A DNA stretch of 64,000 bases from Collinsella aerofaciens (GTDB lineage Bacteria > Actinomycetota > Coriobacteriia > Coriobacteriales > Coriobacteriaceae), in the NCBI RefSeq assembly GCF_009876115.1, contig NZ_WWSY01000003.1, forward strand, positions 1-64,000, read 5' to 3'. Below are positions 2,716 to 64,000 of this stretch, piece after piece. Each line of letters opens with the position of its first letter. The stretch's first letter is position 1. Both the position numbers and the translations under genes were made by a program. The notes below the pieces were generated by a model. The model did not search any database. It saw only the letters and a program-made list of their open reading frames with translations, and was not told the DNA's origin.

Positions 2716-4122
2716 CTATTCCATTTGCGATTTCGCCGCAGCGGCAAGCTGGGCCACATAGTCCTTAAACACGCGGCCGCGCTCCTCATAGCCCGAGAAC
2801 TCATCGAACGAAGAGCAGGCAGGAGAAAGTAAGATCACGTCACCACGGCTCGACAGCGAACGGGCGACGTCCACGGCGTCGCGTAGGTCATCCGCCTGGG
2901 CGATATCCACATCGCCATCGACATCGGCCTCGTCCATAGCGGCAGTAAAGCGCTCGCGCGCATCGCCAAAGCAAACGACCGAGCGCACGTTGTCCATAAC
3001 GACGCGGGCAAAGTCCGCAAGCGGCGTACCCTTATCGTGACCGCCGAGCAGCAAGATCACGTCGTCATCGGGAAACGCCGTCAGAGCCTTTTCGACTGCA
3101 TCGGTGTTCGTTGCCTTGGAATCGTTGACGTAGCGCACGCCATCGATCTCGCCGCAGGGTTCCACGCGGTGTTCGAGTGGCTGGAACGATGCCAAGCCGC
3201 GGCAAACGCCCTCGGGATCGGCACCGACGGCCAGGGCAGCCGTGGCGGCACATAGGGCATTGATGACATTGTGATGGCCCGAGATCTTGAGCTCGGACGT
3301 GGCGACAAGCTGAGTCTCGACGCCCTTCAGGCGGACGACCATCTTGCCGTCGCGCACAAAGGCGGCGTCTGCACCCTCGGGCTCGTCAAAAGCGACCTTG
3401 CAGATGCGGCGACCCGGCGTGTAGATGTACTCATCGAACTCATGGATGCCGGCATCCTCGACGTCGATAACCACGAGGTCGTCGTCGACCATATTCTCGA
3501 ACAACTTGATCTTGGCAAGCGCATAGTTCTTGTGGCTCTTGTGCCAGCCCAGGTGGTCGGGCGTGATGTTAAGTAGCACCGCCACGCGAGGATGAAGCTC
3601 GGCGGTCGTAGCAATCTGGTAACTCGACAGCTCGGCCACAAACCACTCATTGTGTGCACGGCCGTCGATCTCGTTCACCGGCGGCTCGCCGATATTGCCG
3701 ACGGCCACGCTGGCTTCACCGGCGGCCTTGAGCAGATAATCGGTCAGCGACGTGGTAGTTGTCTTGCCGTTGGTGCCCGTGATGGCGATCCAATTTTGGG
3801 GAGACAGGCGGTAGGCAAACTCGGGCTCGCCCATAATCTGAGCGGTATGCTCACGCCCAGCCTTAAAGAAGGCCGAGAACTCCGAGATACCCGGGCATGT
3901 CACGCACACGTCATAGGCACCCTCGACCTGCTCGGTGCCGTAGACAAACGACGCGCCCTGCGCCTCGAGCGCACGCGTGGCGTCATTGGGCTCGGAGGTA
4001 CCACCGCCATATACGGTCGTGGCGCTCACGCGCTCGGGGTGAGCCAGCGCCCAACGGGCGACATCGAGACCGGATTTACCCTGCCCCAAAACGAGCAGGC
4101 TAAAGACATCAGCAAGAGGCAT
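2716..4122 (-). CDS. murD: MurD, UDP-MurNAc-L-Ala:D-Glu ligase
   Basis: MurD adds D-glutamate to UDP-MurNAc-L-alanine in the cytoplasm, using ATP. The 468-residue protein has the Mur ligase ATP loop GTNGKTTT at residues 116-123, a central-domain histidine segment (NITPDHLGWH) and the C-terminal domain stretch LLLGGHDKGT. Its length is normal for the family. It starts nine bases after the mraY stop and is followed within about ten bases by ftsW, so it belongs to the dcw transcript. Confidence 0.95.
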   Translation of the reverse strand: MPLADVFSLLVLGQGKSGLDVARWALAHPERVSATTVYGGGTSEPNDATRALEAQGASFVYGTEQVEGAYDVCVTCPGISEFSAFFKAGREHTAQIMGEPEFAYRLSPQNWIAITGTNGKTTTTSLTDYLLKAAGEASVAVGNIGEPPVNEIDGRAHNEWFVAELSSYQIATTAELHPRVAVLLNITPDHLGWHKSHKNYALAKIKLFENMVDDDLVVIDVEDAGIHEFDEYIYTPGRRICKVAFDEPEGADAAFVRDGKMVVRLKGVETQLVATSELKISGHHNVINALCAATAALAVGADPEGVCRGLASFQPLEHRVEPCGEIDGVRYVNDSKATNTDAVEKALTAFPDDDVILLLGGHDKGTPLADFARVVMDNVRSVVCFGDARERFTAAMDEADVDGDVDIAQADDLRDAVDVARSLSSRGDVILLSPACSSFDEFSGYEERGRVFKDYVAQLAAAAKSQME

Positions 4123-48855: not shown

Positions 48856-48939
48856 TTTAGACTTCCTATAGGCTAATAGATGTATTTATTAGCTGAGATT
48901 CCACATGGCTTTGCGGGGTCTCAACAGTTGGGAGGGATT

Positions 48940-50742
48940 ATGAGGTTTACTCATCCCGTCAACACGCTCAAGAAGCTCGGCTGCGGCCTTGCGTTTGGAG
49001 CAGCAGCCATCATGGCCATGCCGACCTCGGCACTCGCCTGCACCCAGATCTACATGGGCAGCAAGCTCACGGCAGACGGCAACACGTACTACGGCCGTTC
49101 CGAGGACTTCGGTCCACGCTATGTCAAGCACTTTGGCATTGAGCCCGCACACAAGGACGGCAACGAGTACACATCGGTCGAGTCCGGTTTTGAGTACAAG
49201 TCCAAGGGTGCAACCTACCGCTACACTTTCGTTCGCGACAACCCCTCGCAGTGGGAAGATCGCTACGACGCATATTCCGAGGCTGGCATCAACGAGAAGG
49301 GCGTTTCCTGCTCTGCCACGCTGAGCACCTCCTATAACGAGAAGGCCGAAGAGGCCGATCCCGTCACCGAGGAGACCGGCATCGGCGAGTACAACTACGC
49401 CAGCGTCATTCTGGGCGAGAGCGCCACGGCCCGCGAGGGTGTCGAGCTCCTCGGCAGCCTGATCGACGAGCAGGGCGTCTGCTCCAACGACCAGATCATC
49501 ATCGCCGACAGCACCGAGACCTGGCTGTTCGCCGCGCTTTCCGGCCATCAGTGGATTGCCATGAAGCTCGCCGACGACATCGCCTCGCTCAACCCCAACA
49601 TCGGCAACCTCACCTATGACGTCGACCTCGACGACACCGAGAACTGCCTCCACTCCGAGGGCATCGAGTCCATGCCTAAGGAGAAAGGCTTTGCCGAGTA
49701 CACCGACGGCAAGTTCGACGTCGCCAAGACCTACGGCGAGGAGATTAGCGAGGCCGGTATGCACCAGTGGTCGCGCTATGTCCAGGGACGCGATTACTTC
49801 ATGGCTCCGCTTGCCGAAGGCACCGACTACGAGATCGTTAAGGACGAGGGCGAAGAGGCTCGCGCCACGACCGGCGCCCTGGTCCACGAGATGCAGCCGC
49901 TGTTCTTCCAGCCCGGCAAGTCCGACTGGAACACCTTTGAGATGATCCGCAGCTTCGCCGCCCGCGGCGAAAATGTTGCCGGCCTCAACGCCAACACCGA
50001 CGGCGCCTACGCCATCGGCTCCAACCGCAACACCGAGATCCACACCTTCCAGATCCGTCAGGGCATGGATCCCGAGATCGCGACCATCCAGTGGGAGATG
50101 CTCTCCAACGCCGAGTTCTCCGTCGCCATCCCCCTCTACTCCGCACTGCTCACCGAGGTCAGCCCCTACTTTAGCGATCAGGATGTCTCCTTCGACCACT
50201 GCGAAGAGGAAGACGTCGTGAACAACGAGGAGCCCAAGAACTCCATCAACTACGTCCTCATGGACATCAACACGCTCGCCTATGAGAACCGCGACCACTG
50301 CGCTTCCGGCGTCCGCGCCTACCTCGACGCCCTGCAGAAGGAGCTCATCGAGCAGAACCTGACCGTCGACGAGGCCATGCAGGCCGCCGAGGGCACCGAG
50401 GCCCGCACCGCCCTGGCCAACAAGGCCGGCAAGGCTGCCACCAAAAACACCTACCTCAAATGCAAGGCCATGCTCGAGGAGATGCGTGACTACCTCAAGG
50501 AGGGCGACTTCTACGAGGAGTTCGTCCCGAGTGACTACGATGCCGACAACGACTGCCTGGTCGAGTCCATCACCTACGCCGACGAGGCACTCTCCGATGA
50601 GGACGTAGCCGAGCCCGAGGTCGAGAAGAAAGAGGCCACCGAGGAGAAGTCCGAGGGCAACAACATGGCCGCCATGGCCGTTGGTGCCGTCGTCATCATC
50701 GGTGTCTGCGGCTTCGTGCTCTATCGTCGCAAGAAGGCCTAA
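48940..50742 (+). CDS. Secreted C69-family dipeptidase
   Basis: The 600-residue protein is a peptidase family C69 (U34) dipeptidase, an N-terminal nucleophile hydrolase. A signal peptide (about residues 1-33, ending PTSALA) precedes Cys34 in ACTQIYMG, which becomes the catalytic N-terminal cysteine; GRSEDFGPR follows. The catalytic domain is followed by an acidic linker and a C-terminal membrane helix with YRRKKA, so the enzyme is probably tethered outside the cell. There is no LPXTG motif. I start at 48940, with GGGAGGGATT upstream. A role in dipeptide use fits an amino-acid-fermenting lifestyle. Confidence 0.9.
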   Translation: MRFTHPVNTLKKLGCGLAFGAAAIMAMPTSALACTQIYMGSKLTADGNTYYGRSEDFGPRYVKHFGIEPAHKDGNEYTSVESGFEYKSKGATYRYTFVRDNPSQWEDRYDAYSEAGINEKGVSCSATLSTSYNEKAEEADPVTEETGIGEYNYASVILGESATAREGVELLGSLIDEQGVCSNDQIIIADSTETWLFAALSGHQWIAMKLADDIASLNPNIGNLTYDVDLDDTENCLHSEGIESMPKEKGFAEYTDGKFDVAKTYGEEISEAGMHQWSRYVQGRDYFMAPLAEGTDYEIVKDEGEEARATTGALVHEMQPLFFQPGKSDWNTFEMIRSFAARGENVAGLNANTDGAYAIGSNRNTEIHTFQIRQGMDPEIATIQWEMLSNAEFSVAIPLYSALLTEVSPYFSDQDVSFDHCEEEDVVNNEEPKNSINYVLMDINTLAYENRDHCASGVRAYLDALQKELIEQNLTVDEAMQAAEGTEARTALANKAGKAATKNTYLKCKAMLEEMRDYLKEGDFYEEFVPSDYDADNDCLVESITYADEALSDEDVAEPEVEKKEATEEKSEGNNMAAMAVGAVVIIGVCGFVLYRRKKA

Positions 50743-50933
50743 GGCCCTCACGCTCTAAGGGAGGGCAAGACAGTGCGAGCGGTCTTGCCCTCCTCGCCTG
50801 TCATCCGACCGGCGGGAAACATCGCCGAAATCTTTTCAAAAAAGATTTCCTGCAAACACTTTGCTGTGTTATAGTGCAGCGCAACAGCAACAAGGTGCGA
50901 CCGCGCCACGGCATCACGAAAGGAGCCACCGAC

Positions 50934-51002
50934 ATGAAGAACACGATGAAGTCTCTCAACAACTGGTGGTGGCGTGATGCGAATACGATCGGTCGACAGT
51001 GA
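50934..51002 (+). CDS. Tryptophan leader peptide, Trp-Trp-Trp
   Basis: A 22-codon frame with a good ribosome site (GAAAGGAGCCACCGAC) encodes MKNTMKSLNNWWWRDANTIG then RQ and stop. Three consecutive Trp codons at 50964-50972, followed by a stop and an intrinsic terminator ahead of a transporter operon, are the hallmarks of ribosome-mediated transcription attenuation. A -10 like TATAGT at 50870-50875 lies about 60 bases upstream. Confidence 0.85.
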   Translation: MKNTMKSLNNWWWRDANTIGRQ

Positions 51003-51069
51003 GTCCCTCACGCCTGTTTTTGCGCTCTAGGTGATTGAAAGGCCTCCGGTTTCGACCGGGGGCCTTTTT
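50964..51069 (+). promoter_or_regulatory. Trp attenuator of the ECF transporter operon
   Basis: The terminator hairpin is AAAGGCCTCCGGT/ACCGGGGGCCTTTTT (51038-51069). Two competing pairings are visible. GGCGTGA at 50971-50977, on the last Trp codon, matches TCACGCC at 51008-51014. CGGTCGA at 50990-50996 matches TCGACCG at 51052-51058, inside the terminator. A ribosome stalled on the Trp codons would leave the second free to break the terminator; one reaching the stop codon would cover it. This mechanism is inferred from sequence alone. Confidence 0.75.
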
Positions 51070-51148
51070 CTATCTCGAGCCCGATCGCATTCGCATCACG
51101 CGCCTCCGCTTTCTTCTCTTGCACTTCCCCTCCGAAAGGATTTTCACC

Positions 51149-51721
51149 ATGTCTCAGAACACCACCGCCGCCCAGCCCCGCACCGTCCAGACCGCCGACC
51201 GCGGCAAACTCGACGTCCGCGCCCTCGTCTTGCTCGCCATCCTGCTTGCCGCCGGCTTCATCCTCAACTTCACCGTCGGCAAGGCCATCTCCGGCATCTC
51301 GGGCGGCATGATCAGCCCCGAGTTCATTATCTCGGCCTTCTGCCTCACCATCCTGGTCGTGCGCCCCAACATCGGTCAGGCGCTCGTTATCGGCCTGATC
51401 TCGGCCGCCGTGATCCAGATCACCACCACCTCGCCGTTCGTCGATTTTGCCGCCGAGGGCATCGCCGCCATGCTCATGGCCGTCATTGTCAACGCTGCTG
51501 CCAAGGACGGCCAGGTTAAGCCCGCCGTCGCCATCGTCGCAACGTTCGTGACCACCTTTGTCTCGGGCGCCATCTTCATGGTCATCAAGATGGCCATGCT
51601 CGGCGTGGTGGGCGAACTCGCCGCTGCCATGCTGCCCGTCGTCGCCACGACCGCCGTCTTTAACGCCATCCTGGTCGGCGCTCTCTACCTGCCCATCCAG
51701 AAGGCCCTGAAGCTCAACTAA
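51149..51721 (+). CDS. ECF transporter S component, probably for tryptophan
   Basis: The 190-residue protein has a polar N-terminus (about 1-22) and five to six hydrophobic segments, the size and form of an ECF substrate-binding S component. Genes for the ATPase and T components follow. No known S-component family motif (thiamin, riboflavin, biotin, folate) is recognisable. The Trp leader upstream makes tryptophan, or a related indole compound, the best guess for the substrate. GAAAGGATTTTCACC precedes the ATG. Confidence 0.78.
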   Translation: MSQNTTAAQPRTVQTADRGKLDVRALVLLAILLAAGFILNFTVGKAISGISGGMISPEFIISAFCLTILVVRPNIGQALVIGLISAAVIQITTTSPFVDFAAEGIAAMLMAVIVNAAAKDGQVKPAVAIVATFVTTFVSGAIFMVIKMAMLGVVGELAAAMLPVVATTAVFNAILVGALYLPIQKALKLN

Positions 51722-51727
51722 CCCGCT

Positions 51728-51827
51728 CGGCTTTACGAACCACCCCATCTTGGCGTTCATTCGTCACTCGCGTACCCAAGTACGCTTCACTCCTCTTTCG
51801 CGCCAACCTGGGCCCCTCGTAAAGCCG
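51728..51827. repeat. Core-conserved palindromic element B, copy 2
   Basis: Arms CGGCTTTACGA (51728-51738) and TCGTAAAGCCG (51817-51827) enclose a core with GGCGTTCATTCGTCACTCG, GCGTACCCAAGTACGC and CTCCTCTTTCGCGCCAACC. Its reverse complement matches the core at 46242-46339, while the arms are unrelated. It sits inside the ECF operon, between the S and ATPase genes, and may lower expression of the downstream genes. Confidence 0.85.
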
Positions 51828-51928
51828 TCTCCGTGCTTCACCACCAAAGACTGTCCCAAACAACGGGTTCATGGACGTTCTTATATGGTTCGTCATTCAA
51901 GAAACTCCGATGACTATGAAAGGTATCC

Positions 51929-53680
51929 ATGGAAACGATCATCAACGTCGACGATGTCTCGTTCTCCTATGGCACGCAGACAGAGCAGGTGCTTAAGCAT
52001 ATCTCGCTCGGCGTGAACAGGGGAGATTTTATCGGCATTATCGGGCCTTCGGGCGCCGGCAAGTCCACACTTGCCGCCTGCCTGTCGGGAGCCGTACCCC
52101 ACCATTACACCGGCACGTTCTTTGGCTCCGTCACTGTCGATGGCAACGACACCTGTGAAGTTTCGCTCACCGATGTGTCGCAAATCGTCGGCAGCGTGTT
52201 GCAGGACATCGACACACAAATGGTTGCCTCGGTCGTCGAGGACGAGATGCTTTTTGGCCTGGAGAACTTTGGCGTTCCCCACGACCAGATCGAGCAACGT
52301 ATAAGCGAGACGCTCGAGACCGTCGGCATCAGCGACCTGCGCGACCGCGAGATCGCCACGCTTTCGGGCGGCCAAAAGCAAAAGGTTGCCATCGCCGCCA
52401 TCCTCGCCATGCGTCCGCGCGTGCTCGTGCTCGACGAACCCACCGCGGCACTCGACCCCGCCAGCTCCACGCTGGTCTTCGAGACCCTGCGTGAGGCCAA
52501 CCGTGCACTCGGCATCACCATCGTCGTCGTTGAGCAAAAAGTCGCCCTGCTTTCGGAGTATTGCAACCGCGTGCTCGTGCTCAATCATGGCGAAATCGCG
52601 CTACAGGGCGAGCCGCACGAGGTCTTCGCGCACGCCGATGAGCTCCGCGCCATCGGCGTCGATTGCCCGCGTGTCACGCGCATTTTTAACAGCCTCGAAG
52701 CCGATGGCCTAGCCAGCGGCACTCCCTGTTTGGATGTTGATGAGGCCGAGCGCCTGATTACGGGCATCGTCGACCCCGCACACGTAAGCAGCGACATTCA
52801 GGCACCCGCCGGCTCACCGCACGCACCGTCGTTGCGCCCGCACGCCAAGGACGCCGAGCCCGTGCTCACCTTCAATCACGTTGAGTTTGCCTATCCCAAT
52901 GGCGGCGCCGCCGTCCACGACCTCAACCTGACCCTCTATCCCGGTGAGCTCGTGGGCATCGTCGGCCAAAACGGCGCCGGCAAGACCACGCTCACTAAGC
53001 TGCTCACAGGCCTGCTTAAGCCTGCCTCGGGCAGCGTGCGCGTCACGGGACTGGATACCGCAGCCGTTCCCACGAGCCGCATCGCCCGCGAAGTCGCAAC
53101 CCTCTTCCAAAACCCCGACCGCCAGATCTGCAAGGACACCGTACTCGACGAGGTCGCCTTTGGCCTGGAGCTTGCCGGCATCGACCGAGCCGAGGCGCTG
53201 CGTCGCGCCCAGCTCGTCATCGACCGCTTTGGCTTGCCGGCCGACGAGGCGCCCTTCTCGCTCTCGCGCGGTCAGCGCCAGATGGTGGCACTCGCCTCCG
53301 TCGTGGTCGTAGAGCCCAAAATCGTGGTGCTCGACGAGCCCACGAGCGGCCTTGACTACCGTGAGTGCATGACCGTCATGGAAACCGTGCGCACCATGGC
53401 CGAGCGCGGCTGCGCCGTCATCATGGTCTGCCACGACATGGAAGTCGTATCCGACTTTGCCGAGCGCATCGTGGTGATGGCCGACGGCCGCATCCTCGAG
53501 CGCGGCCGCACGCACGAGCTGTTCTCGAACATCGAGCTCATGCAGCAAGCCTACGTTGAGCCACCTCAGGTCATAGAGCTTTCTCGTCGTCTGGCATCCT
53601 CCGTCTCTCCCGCCTTTGCACAGGTGAGCGAGGTCACCGATATCGTTCGCATTACCGAGGAGATGGTCCACCGTGGTTAA
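51929..53680 (+). CDS. ECF transporter ATPase, two ABC domains fused
   Basis: The 583-residue protein joins both ECF ATPase subunits. The first ABC domain has GPSGAGKST (Walker A), LSGGQKQK and VLDEPTAALD; the second has GQNGAGKTT, the variant signature LSRGQRQ and VLDEPTSGLD. A linker of about 60 residues separates them. Fused A subunits are known in YkoD-type transporters. The stop overlaps the GTG start of the T component by eight bases, so the two are coupled. Confidence 0.92.
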   Translation: METIINVDDVSFSYGTQTEQVLKHISLGVNRGDFIGIIGPSGAGKSTLAACLSGAVPHHYTGTFFGSVTVDGNDTCEVSLTDVSQIVGSVLQDIDTQMVASVVEDEMLFGLENFGVPHDQIEQRISETLETVGISDLRDREIATLSGGQKQKVAIAAILAMRPRVLVLDEPTAALDPASSTLVFETLREANRALGITIVVVEQKVALLSEYCNRVLVLNHGEIALQGEPHEVFAHADELRAIGVDCPRVTRIFNSLEADGLASGTPCLDVDEAERLITGIVDPAHVSSDIQAPAGSPHAPSLRPHAKDAEPVLTFNHVEFAYPNGGAAVHDLNLTLYPGELVGIVGQNGAGKTTLTKLLTGLLKPASGSVRVTGLDTAAVPTSRIAREVATLFQNPDRQICKDTVLDEVAFGLELAGIDRAEALRRAQLVIDRFGLPADEAPFSLSRGQRQMVALASVVVVEPKIVVLDEPTSGLDYRECMTVMETVRTMAERGCAVIMVCHDMEVVSDFAERIVVMADGRILERGRTHELFSNIELMQQAYVEPPQVIELSRRLASSVSPAFAQVSEVTDIVRITEEMVHRG

Positions 53681-54419
53681 CGTCATCGACTATATGCCGG
53701 GCGATACACTGCTGCACCGCTTGAACCCGGTCGTCAAACTGGGCCTTGCCGCCGCCATCATCATCGGCATCTTCCTGTCCGATACCTACGTGGCGCTGTT
53801 GGGCTTTTTGGCACTCACCCTTGCACTGGGCGCCTACGCCGGCGTCGTCGACCGTCTGCTCTCGCTACTCAAGCTGCTGATTCCGCTCGCGCTTATCATG
53901 CTGGTGCTTCAGCTGGCCTTTATGCGCGACGGCAACATAGTGTGGGGCTTCATCACCGACACGGGCCTCATTACCGGATCGAAGGCCTGCCTACGCCTGT
54001 TGGGCGTGGCGCTGCCGCTCATCCTCATGCTTATGGTGACCAAGCTCAACGACCTCGCCAACGCCTGCGTCGAGGTGCTGCGCGTGCCATATCGCTATGC
54101 CTTCACCTTTACCACGGCACTGCGCTTTGTGCCGGTATTTGGTCAGGAAATGAACGCCATCATGGAGGCGCAGACTGCACGCGGCGTCGAATACGACACT
54201 AAGAATCCCGTCAAGAAACTCAAGCTCATGCTGCCGCTGTGCGTGCCACTGCTTATTTCGAGCGTGGGCAAGACCGATGCCACCGCGCTTGCCGCCGAGC
54301 AGCGCGGCTTCTACCTGCGCACGCGTGCGAGTTCGTATAAGCGTTACCCCATCAAAAGCCTGGATATCGCCGTACTTATCGTCAGTATCGCCCTTATCGC
54401 CATCGGCTTCCTGTTCTAG
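53673..54419 (+). CDS. ECF transporter T component
   Basis: The 248-residue EcfT scaffold has about five membrane segments. The coupling helices contain the Ala-Arg-Gly motifs typical of the family, seen here as MEAQTARGVEYDTKNPVKKL (ARG near 170) and AAEQRGFYLRTRASSYKRYP. It starts with GTG, overlapping the ATPase gene. With the S component and fused ATPase it completes a four-domain importer. Confidence 0.92.
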   Translation: MVNVIDYMPGDTLLHRLNPVVKLGLAAAIIIGIFLSDTYVALLGFLALTLALGAYAGVVDRLLSLLKLLIPLALIMLVLQLAFMRDGNIVWGFITDTGLITGSKACLRLLGVALPLILMLMVTKLNDLANACVEVLRVPYRYAFTFTTALRFVPVFGQEMNAIMEAQTARGVEYDTKNPVKKLKLMLPLCVPLLISSVGKTDATALAAEQRGFYLRTRASSYKRYPIKSLDIAVLIVSIALIAIGFLF

Positions 54420-63616: not shown

Positions 63617-64000
63617 AAAGGTTCCTTTCATGGGGGGGCATATCCATTCACACAATATTGTGACGCAGGATTGTGGCACCCTTGTTTCTAGCATATCCCT
63701 GCATTTTTTAAACGTTATATACGAATACTCTTGTTTGGTAAAGTGCAACGTGGTAGGGTCGTTACCACTTGATAGAGGCGCGGGCACGAAGAGCCGCGGG
63801 CGAGTCGGCAGACTTTGACCCTGCGGGGAGGCGAAACCCGCCGAACTGGGCTTTTCGGGCACGAACAGCCTGGTGGGCCTGCGGGAAACACCCGCAGGAC
63901 TGTCTGCAGCAATGCGGGAGCCCTATCCGGACATTGGGTCCACGTTATGCGGATTCGATGCGCAGATGGCGCCGTCTGGATAGCGAGGTTTACGGGACAT
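63617..64000. other. Divergent interval with a lysine riboswitch
   Basis: No gene begins in these 384 bases. The plus strand carries a promoter-like TTGTTT-17-TAGGGT (about 63731-63759) and then a lysine riboswitch. The amidohydrolase promoter on the minus strand should lie between 63620 and 63720. Confidence 0.6.
63768..63930 (+). ncRNA. Lysine riboswitch (L box)
   Basis: The sequence follows the L-box consensus in order: GATAGAGGCGCG at the 5' end (63771), AAGAGCC, the GGGGAGGCG...GCCGAA block (63825-63845), CTGGGC...GGGCACGAACAGCCTGG, a long hairpin CCTGCGGG/CCCGCAGG, CTGTC (63900-63904) and GGAGCCCTATCC at the 3' end. GATAG (63771-63775) and CTATC (63923-63927) form P1. Downstream, GGATAG (63978-63983) can pair with CTATCC, giving an alternative helix that would switch expression. 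The controlled gene, probably lysine synthesis or uptake, lies past 64000. Confidence 0.82.

Follow-up and report, generated by a model that had tools for sequence, protein, structure and literature searches.

A leader peptide with three tryptophan codons precedes a predicted ECF tryptophan importer in Collinsella aerofaciens

The locus and its features

The window analyzed here is a 64,000-nt stretch of Collinsella aerofaciens DNA (contig NZ_WWSY01000003.1, positions 1 to 64,000 of the forward strand). Between 50870 and 54419 it carries a short leader open reading frame (ORF) with three consecutive Trp codons, an intrinsic terminator, and genes for the S, fused A-A' and T components of an energy-coupling factor (ECF) transporter. 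Judged from sequence, the operon very probably specifies an ECF importer that uses ATP to take up tryptophan and has an A-A'-T module of its own. Tryptophan starvation would induce it by way of ribosome-mediated attenuation of transcription. The features of the locus are as follows.

50870-50875, + strand: candidate promoter -10 element TATAGT, recurrent in the same-genus loci read
50919-50925, + strand: Shine-Dalgarno-like AAAGGAG of the leader, read directly; AGGAG is retained in the same-genus loci read
50934-51002, + strand: leader peptide ORF MKNTMKSLNNWWWRDANTIGRQ plus stop (ATG at 50934, 22 codons, stop at 51000-51002), read directly
50964-50972, + strand: three Trp codons, TGG TGG TGG
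50971-50977, + strand: GGCGTGA, A strand of the A:B (anti-antiterminator) helix, from pairing and covariation
50990-50996, + strand: CGGTCGA, antiterminator 5' strand, from conserved pairing and a partial-transcript fold
51008-51014, + strand: TCACGCC, B strand of the A:B helix, from pairing and covariation
51037-51069, + strand: intrinsic terminator with a 14-bp stem (51037-51050 pairs with 51055-51068), UUCG loop and U run, from folding and covariation
51052-51058, + strand: TCGACCG, antiterminator 3' strand in the loop and 3' arm of the terminator, on the same evidence as its partner
51081-51107, + strand: E box, of which 51081-51101 can pair with 50972-50992 at 20 of 21 positions
51149-51721, + strand: S component, TrpP-like, 190 aa, PF17099, S-component fold
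51929-53680, + strand: fused ECF A-A' ATPase, 583 aa, TIGR04520, two ABC_tran stretches
53673-54419, + strand: ECF T component, 248 aa, GTG start, PF02361 (CbiQ), E 4.9e-26

Conservation of the leader peptide

An earlier note on this DNA had described a 22-codon leader with three Trp codons in a row, a terminator at 51038-51069, two pairings (50971-50977 with 51008-51014, and 50990-50996 with 51052-51058) and a complete ECF transporter downstream. All of these are borne out: the leader is read directly at 50934-51002, folding confirms a strong 14-bp stem followed by U's, both pairings are present, and the S, fused A-A' and T genes are ECF-type components. The Trp run by itself means little because TGGTGGTGG is present twice on the + strand of the window (21627 and 50964; it is absent from the - strand), and what counts is its conservation. 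The set of named loci consists of the best 80 of 338 S relatives and is therefore biased towards close kin. A tandem Trp run lies in the leader ORF of 79 of these 80 loci (78 with WWW and one, L095, with WW), and the sequence of the remaining locus (L103) stops 33 nt upstream, so that all 79 loci with enough upstream sequence have a Trp leader. The start, the stop and the ribosome-binding-site-like sequence of the leader are retained, and the codons flanking the Trp run on both sides are variable.

Loci L029 and L030 and genomes G013, G016, G017, G022 and G023 have a tandem second S gene that shares 44-51% identity with the window S; in the two that were read, L029 and L030, it has no own WWW leader within 400 nt. 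A Slackia isoflavoniconvertens record (L052) and a genome of family f2 (G321), perhaps of the same species, have a Collinsella-type leader and a Collinsella-like S, although the rest of the genome groups with other families; the E box, too, is present in L052. This suggests that the operon was transferred together with its leader.

Alternative pairings in the leader RNA

The terminator folds at -24.6 kcal/mol (z -5.1), and none of 200 shuffled sequences is equally stable. A script finds the hairpin in 75 of the 80 sequences, window included (the match in L097 is atypical), and it is seen by eye in the other five. In the leader alignment (A2; 62 distinct leader sequences from the 80), the terminator helix is 87.4% paired and has 23 double-change cells against 9.4 in shuffled alignments, indicating that it covaries, and a version slid by +1 is still 78.6% paired. 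The A:B helix is 90.1% paired; its 23 double-change cells compare with a shuffle mean of 5.0 and are reached by 0 of 500 shuffles, and its slid versions are at most 54.1% paired. The variation in A:B is chiefly C-G, U-A and U-G at one pair, and L049 and L055 alter three adjacent pairs jointly relative to the window. The antiterminator is paired in 92.9% of cells, with a core (GGUC/GACC) that is almost invariant. The classical 2:3 helix, here B with the terminator 5' arm (columns 50-53/85-88), is 79.5% paired with 0 double-change cells and was rejected as lacking covariation support.

Partial-transcript folds, for which the ribosome footprints are assumed, agree with a switch. With the ribosome placed at Trp codon 2 or 3 and the transcript ending at 51058, the freed RNA folds into the antiterminator, and when the ribosome is at the stop codon the freed RNA folds into the terminator. 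A switch by alternative folding is plausible. When charged tRNA-Trp is scarce, the ribosome would stall on the three Trp codons and cover the A strand; A:B would then be blocked, and CGGTCGA would be free to pair with TCGACCG of the terminator, allowing RNA polymerase to read through. When tryptophan is ample, the ribosome would reach the stop codon at 51000 and cover both the antiterminator strand and B, so that the terminator would form, as it would also if the leader were untranslated.

The Rfam scan gave no match for the leader; the lysine riboswitch was the only entry for the window, so the gathering score of the Trp leader family RF00513 (name and number as given in PMC3766115) was not reached. 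As far as its sequence tells, the leader would work like RF00513 yet falls outside the Rfam family.

The ECF genes and the TrpP-like S component

The S component of the window is 94-97% identical to that of named C. aerofaciens records. It matches PF17099 (TrpP) with an E value of 1.9e-5, residues 23-187 aligning to positions 2-168 of the 169 in the profile, and we call it TrpP-like because its score lies slightly under the curated cut-off. Two Adlercreutzia relatives are annotated "tryptophan transporter" by NCBI. Among the relatives listed with a source name, the annotation is hypothetical or uncharacterized protein. The view of the earlier note that the S component belongs to no family with a recognised name is not supported. 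No NCBIfam family matches S, and a PDB sequence search using the S profile gave no match. The predicted model of S has the ECF S-component fold. Residues A30 and A34, invariant in S alignments A1 and A3, correspond to the helix-1 alanines of the AxxxA type, a motif of S components. Two alanines in helix 1 are mentioned in PMC11109136.

The fused A-A' protein scores 460.2 bits as a whole against TIGR04520 (cut-off 315), in two stretches; for the same gene in five relatives the domains taken singly score 245.6-250.2 and 213.2-216.2 bits, each below 315. The T component reaches 92.2 bits against PF02361 (cut-off 25) and 61.6 bits against the cobalt-specific TIGR02454, under its cut-off of 111.8, which is expected for a transporter with a substrate other than cobalt. 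The A gene lies downstream of S in 79 of the 80 named loci.

Trp T-boxes on the same operon

In families f2, f6 and f10 of the order, the S operon has T-boxes in place of the leader peptide. Three Rfam scans placed a same-strand T-box ahead of S in 1 of 9 (L027), 9 of 12 and 19 of 19 loci, 29 in total. The third scan covered 19 of 30 listed loci, and L143 and L151, known only by the pattern GGTGGNACC, stand outside the 29. All 29 T-boxes score 53-78 bits, below the RF00230 gathering score of 93, with E values from 9e-9 to 4e-15. The specifier is UGG (Trp) in all of them (28 by pattern, and L216 by eye). The T-box bulge reads UGGC in 28 and UGGU in one, and UGGC would presumably fit G73 of tRNA-Trp; no tRNA-Trp for this discriminator comparison was present in the two sources scanned. 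The division between T-box and leader is not clean by family, since L147 and L148 of f2 have a WWW leader and the scan of L148 gave no T-box. In L027, a divergent T-box at 2838-3085 on the + strand, with CUC (Leu) at the specifier position, adjoins the Trp T-box.

Genes behind the leader across the order

A covariance model built from the leaders of S operons was run on 395 genomes of the order, with stricter filters and ten candidates scored per genome, and matches were obtained in 157 genomes. At 50 bits or more, 123 of the 133 listed matches precede S, 8 precede a neurotransmitter:sodium symporter (NSS) transporter and 2 lie at contig ends (G209 and G016). The S genes behind the 123 leaders were assigned by coordinates in 108 cases (a listed S homologue follows the leader within 600 nt) and by reading the DNA in 15; among the latter, S is about 0.8 kb away in G096 and is a fragment at a contig end in G196. 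Two of the eight NSS genes were scanned (PF00209, NF037979), and the other six were recognized by eye from their sequence. Six of the genomes with a leader-NSS unit have no S homologue (G317, G319, G324, G325, G326 and G328), and two have both NSS and S (G327 and G322). In G322 (L186, G322:C1:1545000-1553500), a leader-NSS unit is followed in tandem by a leader-S-A-T unit, each with its own Trp leader.

Tryptophan biosynthesis genes were counted in the same 395 genomes, 43 of which belong to the genus. The trpC gene is found in 98 of the 395 genomes and in 1 of the 43 (G002). Above the cut-off, trpB is present in one genus genome (G002) and TrpB2 in one (G191). Seventeen further genomes have sub-cut-off trpB matches; that of G191, at 136.8 bits, is its TrpB2, and the others are below 39 bits. 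Over the order, S and trpC occur together in 27 genomes, S only in 204, trpC only in 71 and neither in 93 (odds ratio 0.17, p 1e-12), and the corresponding counts for high-quality genomes are 22, 166, 31 and 45 (p 4e-7). This avoidance fits an importer replacing synthesis.

Substrate, control and alternative explanations

The case for a tryptophan importer under attenuation is made by the leader ORF, its Trp run, the terminator, the covarying A:B helix, the operon, the trp genes missing in relatives, the Trp T-boxes that take the place of the leader in other families, and the occurrence of this leader type on an NSS gene. From these we infer the ribosome positions, the antitermination, the direction of the response and L-tryptophan as the transported molecule. 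The earlier note had reached a tryptophan or indole-type importer under Trp attenuation, calling this a substrate assignment by regulation alone. The core of that proposal is supported. The indole-type part is disfavoured, given that one of the 43 genus genomes has trpB above the cut-off and one has TrpB2. The assignment also has more than regulation behind it, as the family, the fold, the Trp-specific T-boxes and the missing biosynthesis genes likewise indicate tryptophan. The leader alignment that the note had proposed as a check upheld the Trp run, the terminator and covariation of the first helix, and covariation of the antiterminator is weak.

Several observations weigh against this interpretation. 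On the RNA side, the promoter scan gave no sigma-70 match at threshold, and no leader is seen within 304 nt upstream in L158. The RNAalifold consensus lacks A:B, its paired columns being 3-5/47-49 and 8-10/40-42 instead, so the support for A:B rests on the double-change count. The antiterminator has 3 double-change cells against 1.0 in shuffled alignments (29 of 500 shuffles), a count that is hardly informative because the core is nearly invariant. The whole leader folds with a z of only -1.34 (21 of 200 shuffles are as stable), and the terminator wins in every fold that contains it complete, which means that antitermination must be kinetic. On the protein side, the window S scores 24.9 bits against the PF17099 cut-off of 27.2. 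Among nine further relatives scanned, some of them also in A1, two are above the PF17099 cut-off (L027 at 44.4 and L149 at 43.8), one is below and six have no Pfam match at E 0.01; such a match is likewise missing in 4 of 14 members of A1. Foldseek with S gave no hit with E below 0.001, the best being ThiT at 0.15. In L107, the leader and S are present and A and T are not found within 4 kb. At the level of genomes, the leader model favours S loci because it was built from them, the window's own assembly is outside the set used for the trp-gene counts, and the S-trpC statistic ignores kinship, with 27 genomes having both genes.

A first alternative is that the substrate is a precursor or derivative of tryptophan feeding the Trp pool, such as indole, anthranilate, a Trp-containing peptide or another indole compound. 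Weaker leader matches (31-41 bits) do precede TrpB-like, indole-using enzymes at five loci (G218, G180, G182, G345 and G047, of which G218 and G047 were scanned), and in G030, of family f7, a weaker leader match is followed by TrpB2, S and A; G361 has the same spacing, with the intervening gene unread. However, trpB and TrpB2 are both missing above the cut-off from 41 of the 43 genus genomes, and 42 have no trpC, so that indole and anthranilate could not be converted to tryptophan by these routes. These two substrates are disfavoured, an argument that does not bear on Trp-containing peptides. In addition, B. subtilis TrpP is implicated in the uptake of tryptophan and 5-fluorotryptophan (PMC13170310). 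We regard this alternative as improbable.

A second alternative is that A-A'-T is a general module for many S components, which would come under Trp control only through its place in the gene order. Sharing of ECF modules is common (PMC7755397), and L107 would fit it. On the other hand, all five Collinsella genomes examined have another, higher-scoring fused ECF ATPase elsewhere, and the S-A order is nearly constant in the named loci. With a separate ECF ATPase already in these five genomes, a general vitamin module was rejected, and the broader explanation appears unlikely. Least credible of all is an untranslated ORF in a leader composed of the terminator and a protein- or ligand-binding RNA element: the Trp codons overlap the A strand, so that an RNA constraint could conserve them, and the E box pairs here too, but the translation signals persist while the codons around the Trp run vary, and the Trp T-boxes on relatives' operons point to sensing of Trp charging.

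A partner of the leader 3' of the terminator

The E box is conserved in Collinsella and Enorma and is complementary to the leader just 3' of the Trp codons. An exact complement of the 8-nt A core is found in 32 of 73 distinct loci. All 32 belong to the 40 loci whose core is of the Collinsella type, and the complement is absent wherever the core is of the Olsenella type. The complement tracks the core variant (GCGTGATG, 26 of 32; GCGTGGTG, 3 of 3; GCGCGATG, 3 of 5), with 2 cross-type matches. Taken locus by locus, an 8-nt match to the A core is weak evidence, with a chance value of about 0.1-0.25. The A:E helix has 6 double-change cells against a shuffle mean of 0.7 (0 of 500). These counts come from 32 of 43 eligible rows, the dropped rows being nine near-identical C. 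aerofaciens-type rows, L090 and L091; the pairing of 97.8% on the 32 aligned rows is flattering, since L091 lacks an E box and so does L090 by the 8-nt complement counts. Slid versions reach 70.8% paired (slide +2). The read-through leader folds with the A:E helix at -90.7 kcal/mol (z -6.0, 0 of 200 shuffles).

Because E is transcribed after the terminator decision, it cannot be a classical antiterminator. A second regulatory layer is possible, and we propose it tentatively: in the read-through mRNA of Collinsella and Enorma, E might capture A and part of the antiterminator strand, refolding the mRNA and locking the leader into an extended helix that encloses the terminator. The operon mRNA itself, beyond its synthesis, might then answer to the position of the ribosome on the Trp codons. 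That E acts on the read-through mRNA in such a way is a guess. No trp attenuator with a post-terminator partner of this kind is known to us, although no search aimed at one was made.

Comparison with known systems

Known actinobacterial trp attenuators, those of the Corynebacterium and Streptomyces trp operons and of S. avermitilis trpS2, share with the present leader a peptide with 2-3 Trp codons and a GC-rich terminator, and they have a competing antiterminator, for which the leader here has a candidate (PMC1262725). They control biosynthesis or a tRNA synthetase, whereas the leader here precedes a predicted importer in a genus whose sampled genomes are mostly without trpC and trpB, and it has the additional A-strand partner 3' of the terminator. 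The word "transporter" is absent from the main text of PMC1262725, and the attenuators of Rfam leader families are said in PMC3766115 to control mainly biosynthetic genes.

The family resemblance, over residues 23-187 with a score just under the cut-off, is to PF17099, the family of B. subtilis TrpP. That protein is implicated in tryptophan uptake, and trpP translation is controlled by TRAP (PMC13170310), whereas S stands here with an ECF module of its own, under the control of a leader peptide or a T-box. The Corynebacterium glutamicum "TrpP" (Cg3357), which in PMC11995493 is compared with SdpI with transport excluded, looks like a name clash. With vitamin and metal ECF transporters (ThiT, RibU, PanT, FolT, CbiMQO) the system shares the S fold, two ATPase domains, T and a single operon, but its predicted substrate is an amino acid. 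In Firmicutes, the substrates of ABC and NSS transporters have likewise been inferred from Trp-specific T-box control (Wels et al. 2008; PMC2494555, excerpts); here the transporter is of the ECF/TrpP-like type and the window has leader-peptide attenuation. No earlier work on Trp-controlled ECF importers was found in searches of an open-licence library, which is not proof of absence.

If correct, the interpretation describes an amino-acid ECF importer under textbook trp attenuation in organisms mostly without trpC and trpB, and a concrete route by which Collinsella, common gut bacteria, could take up a diet- and host-derived amino acid. Within one order, two unrelated devices, the leader peptide and the T-box, appear to link the same uptake operon to tRNA-Trp, and one leader type serves unrelated transporters, ECF and NSS. 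Together, the two controls and the shared leader make the substrate assignment directly testable.

Other features of the window

A lysine riboswitch (RF00168, 74.2 bits) lies near the window end at 63765-63933 on the + strand, and the gene it regulates would be outside. The upstream neighbour of the operon (48880-50742, + strand) encodes a member of the peptidase C69 family (PF03577) that has a hydrophobic segment at its C-terminus and an RRKK tail.

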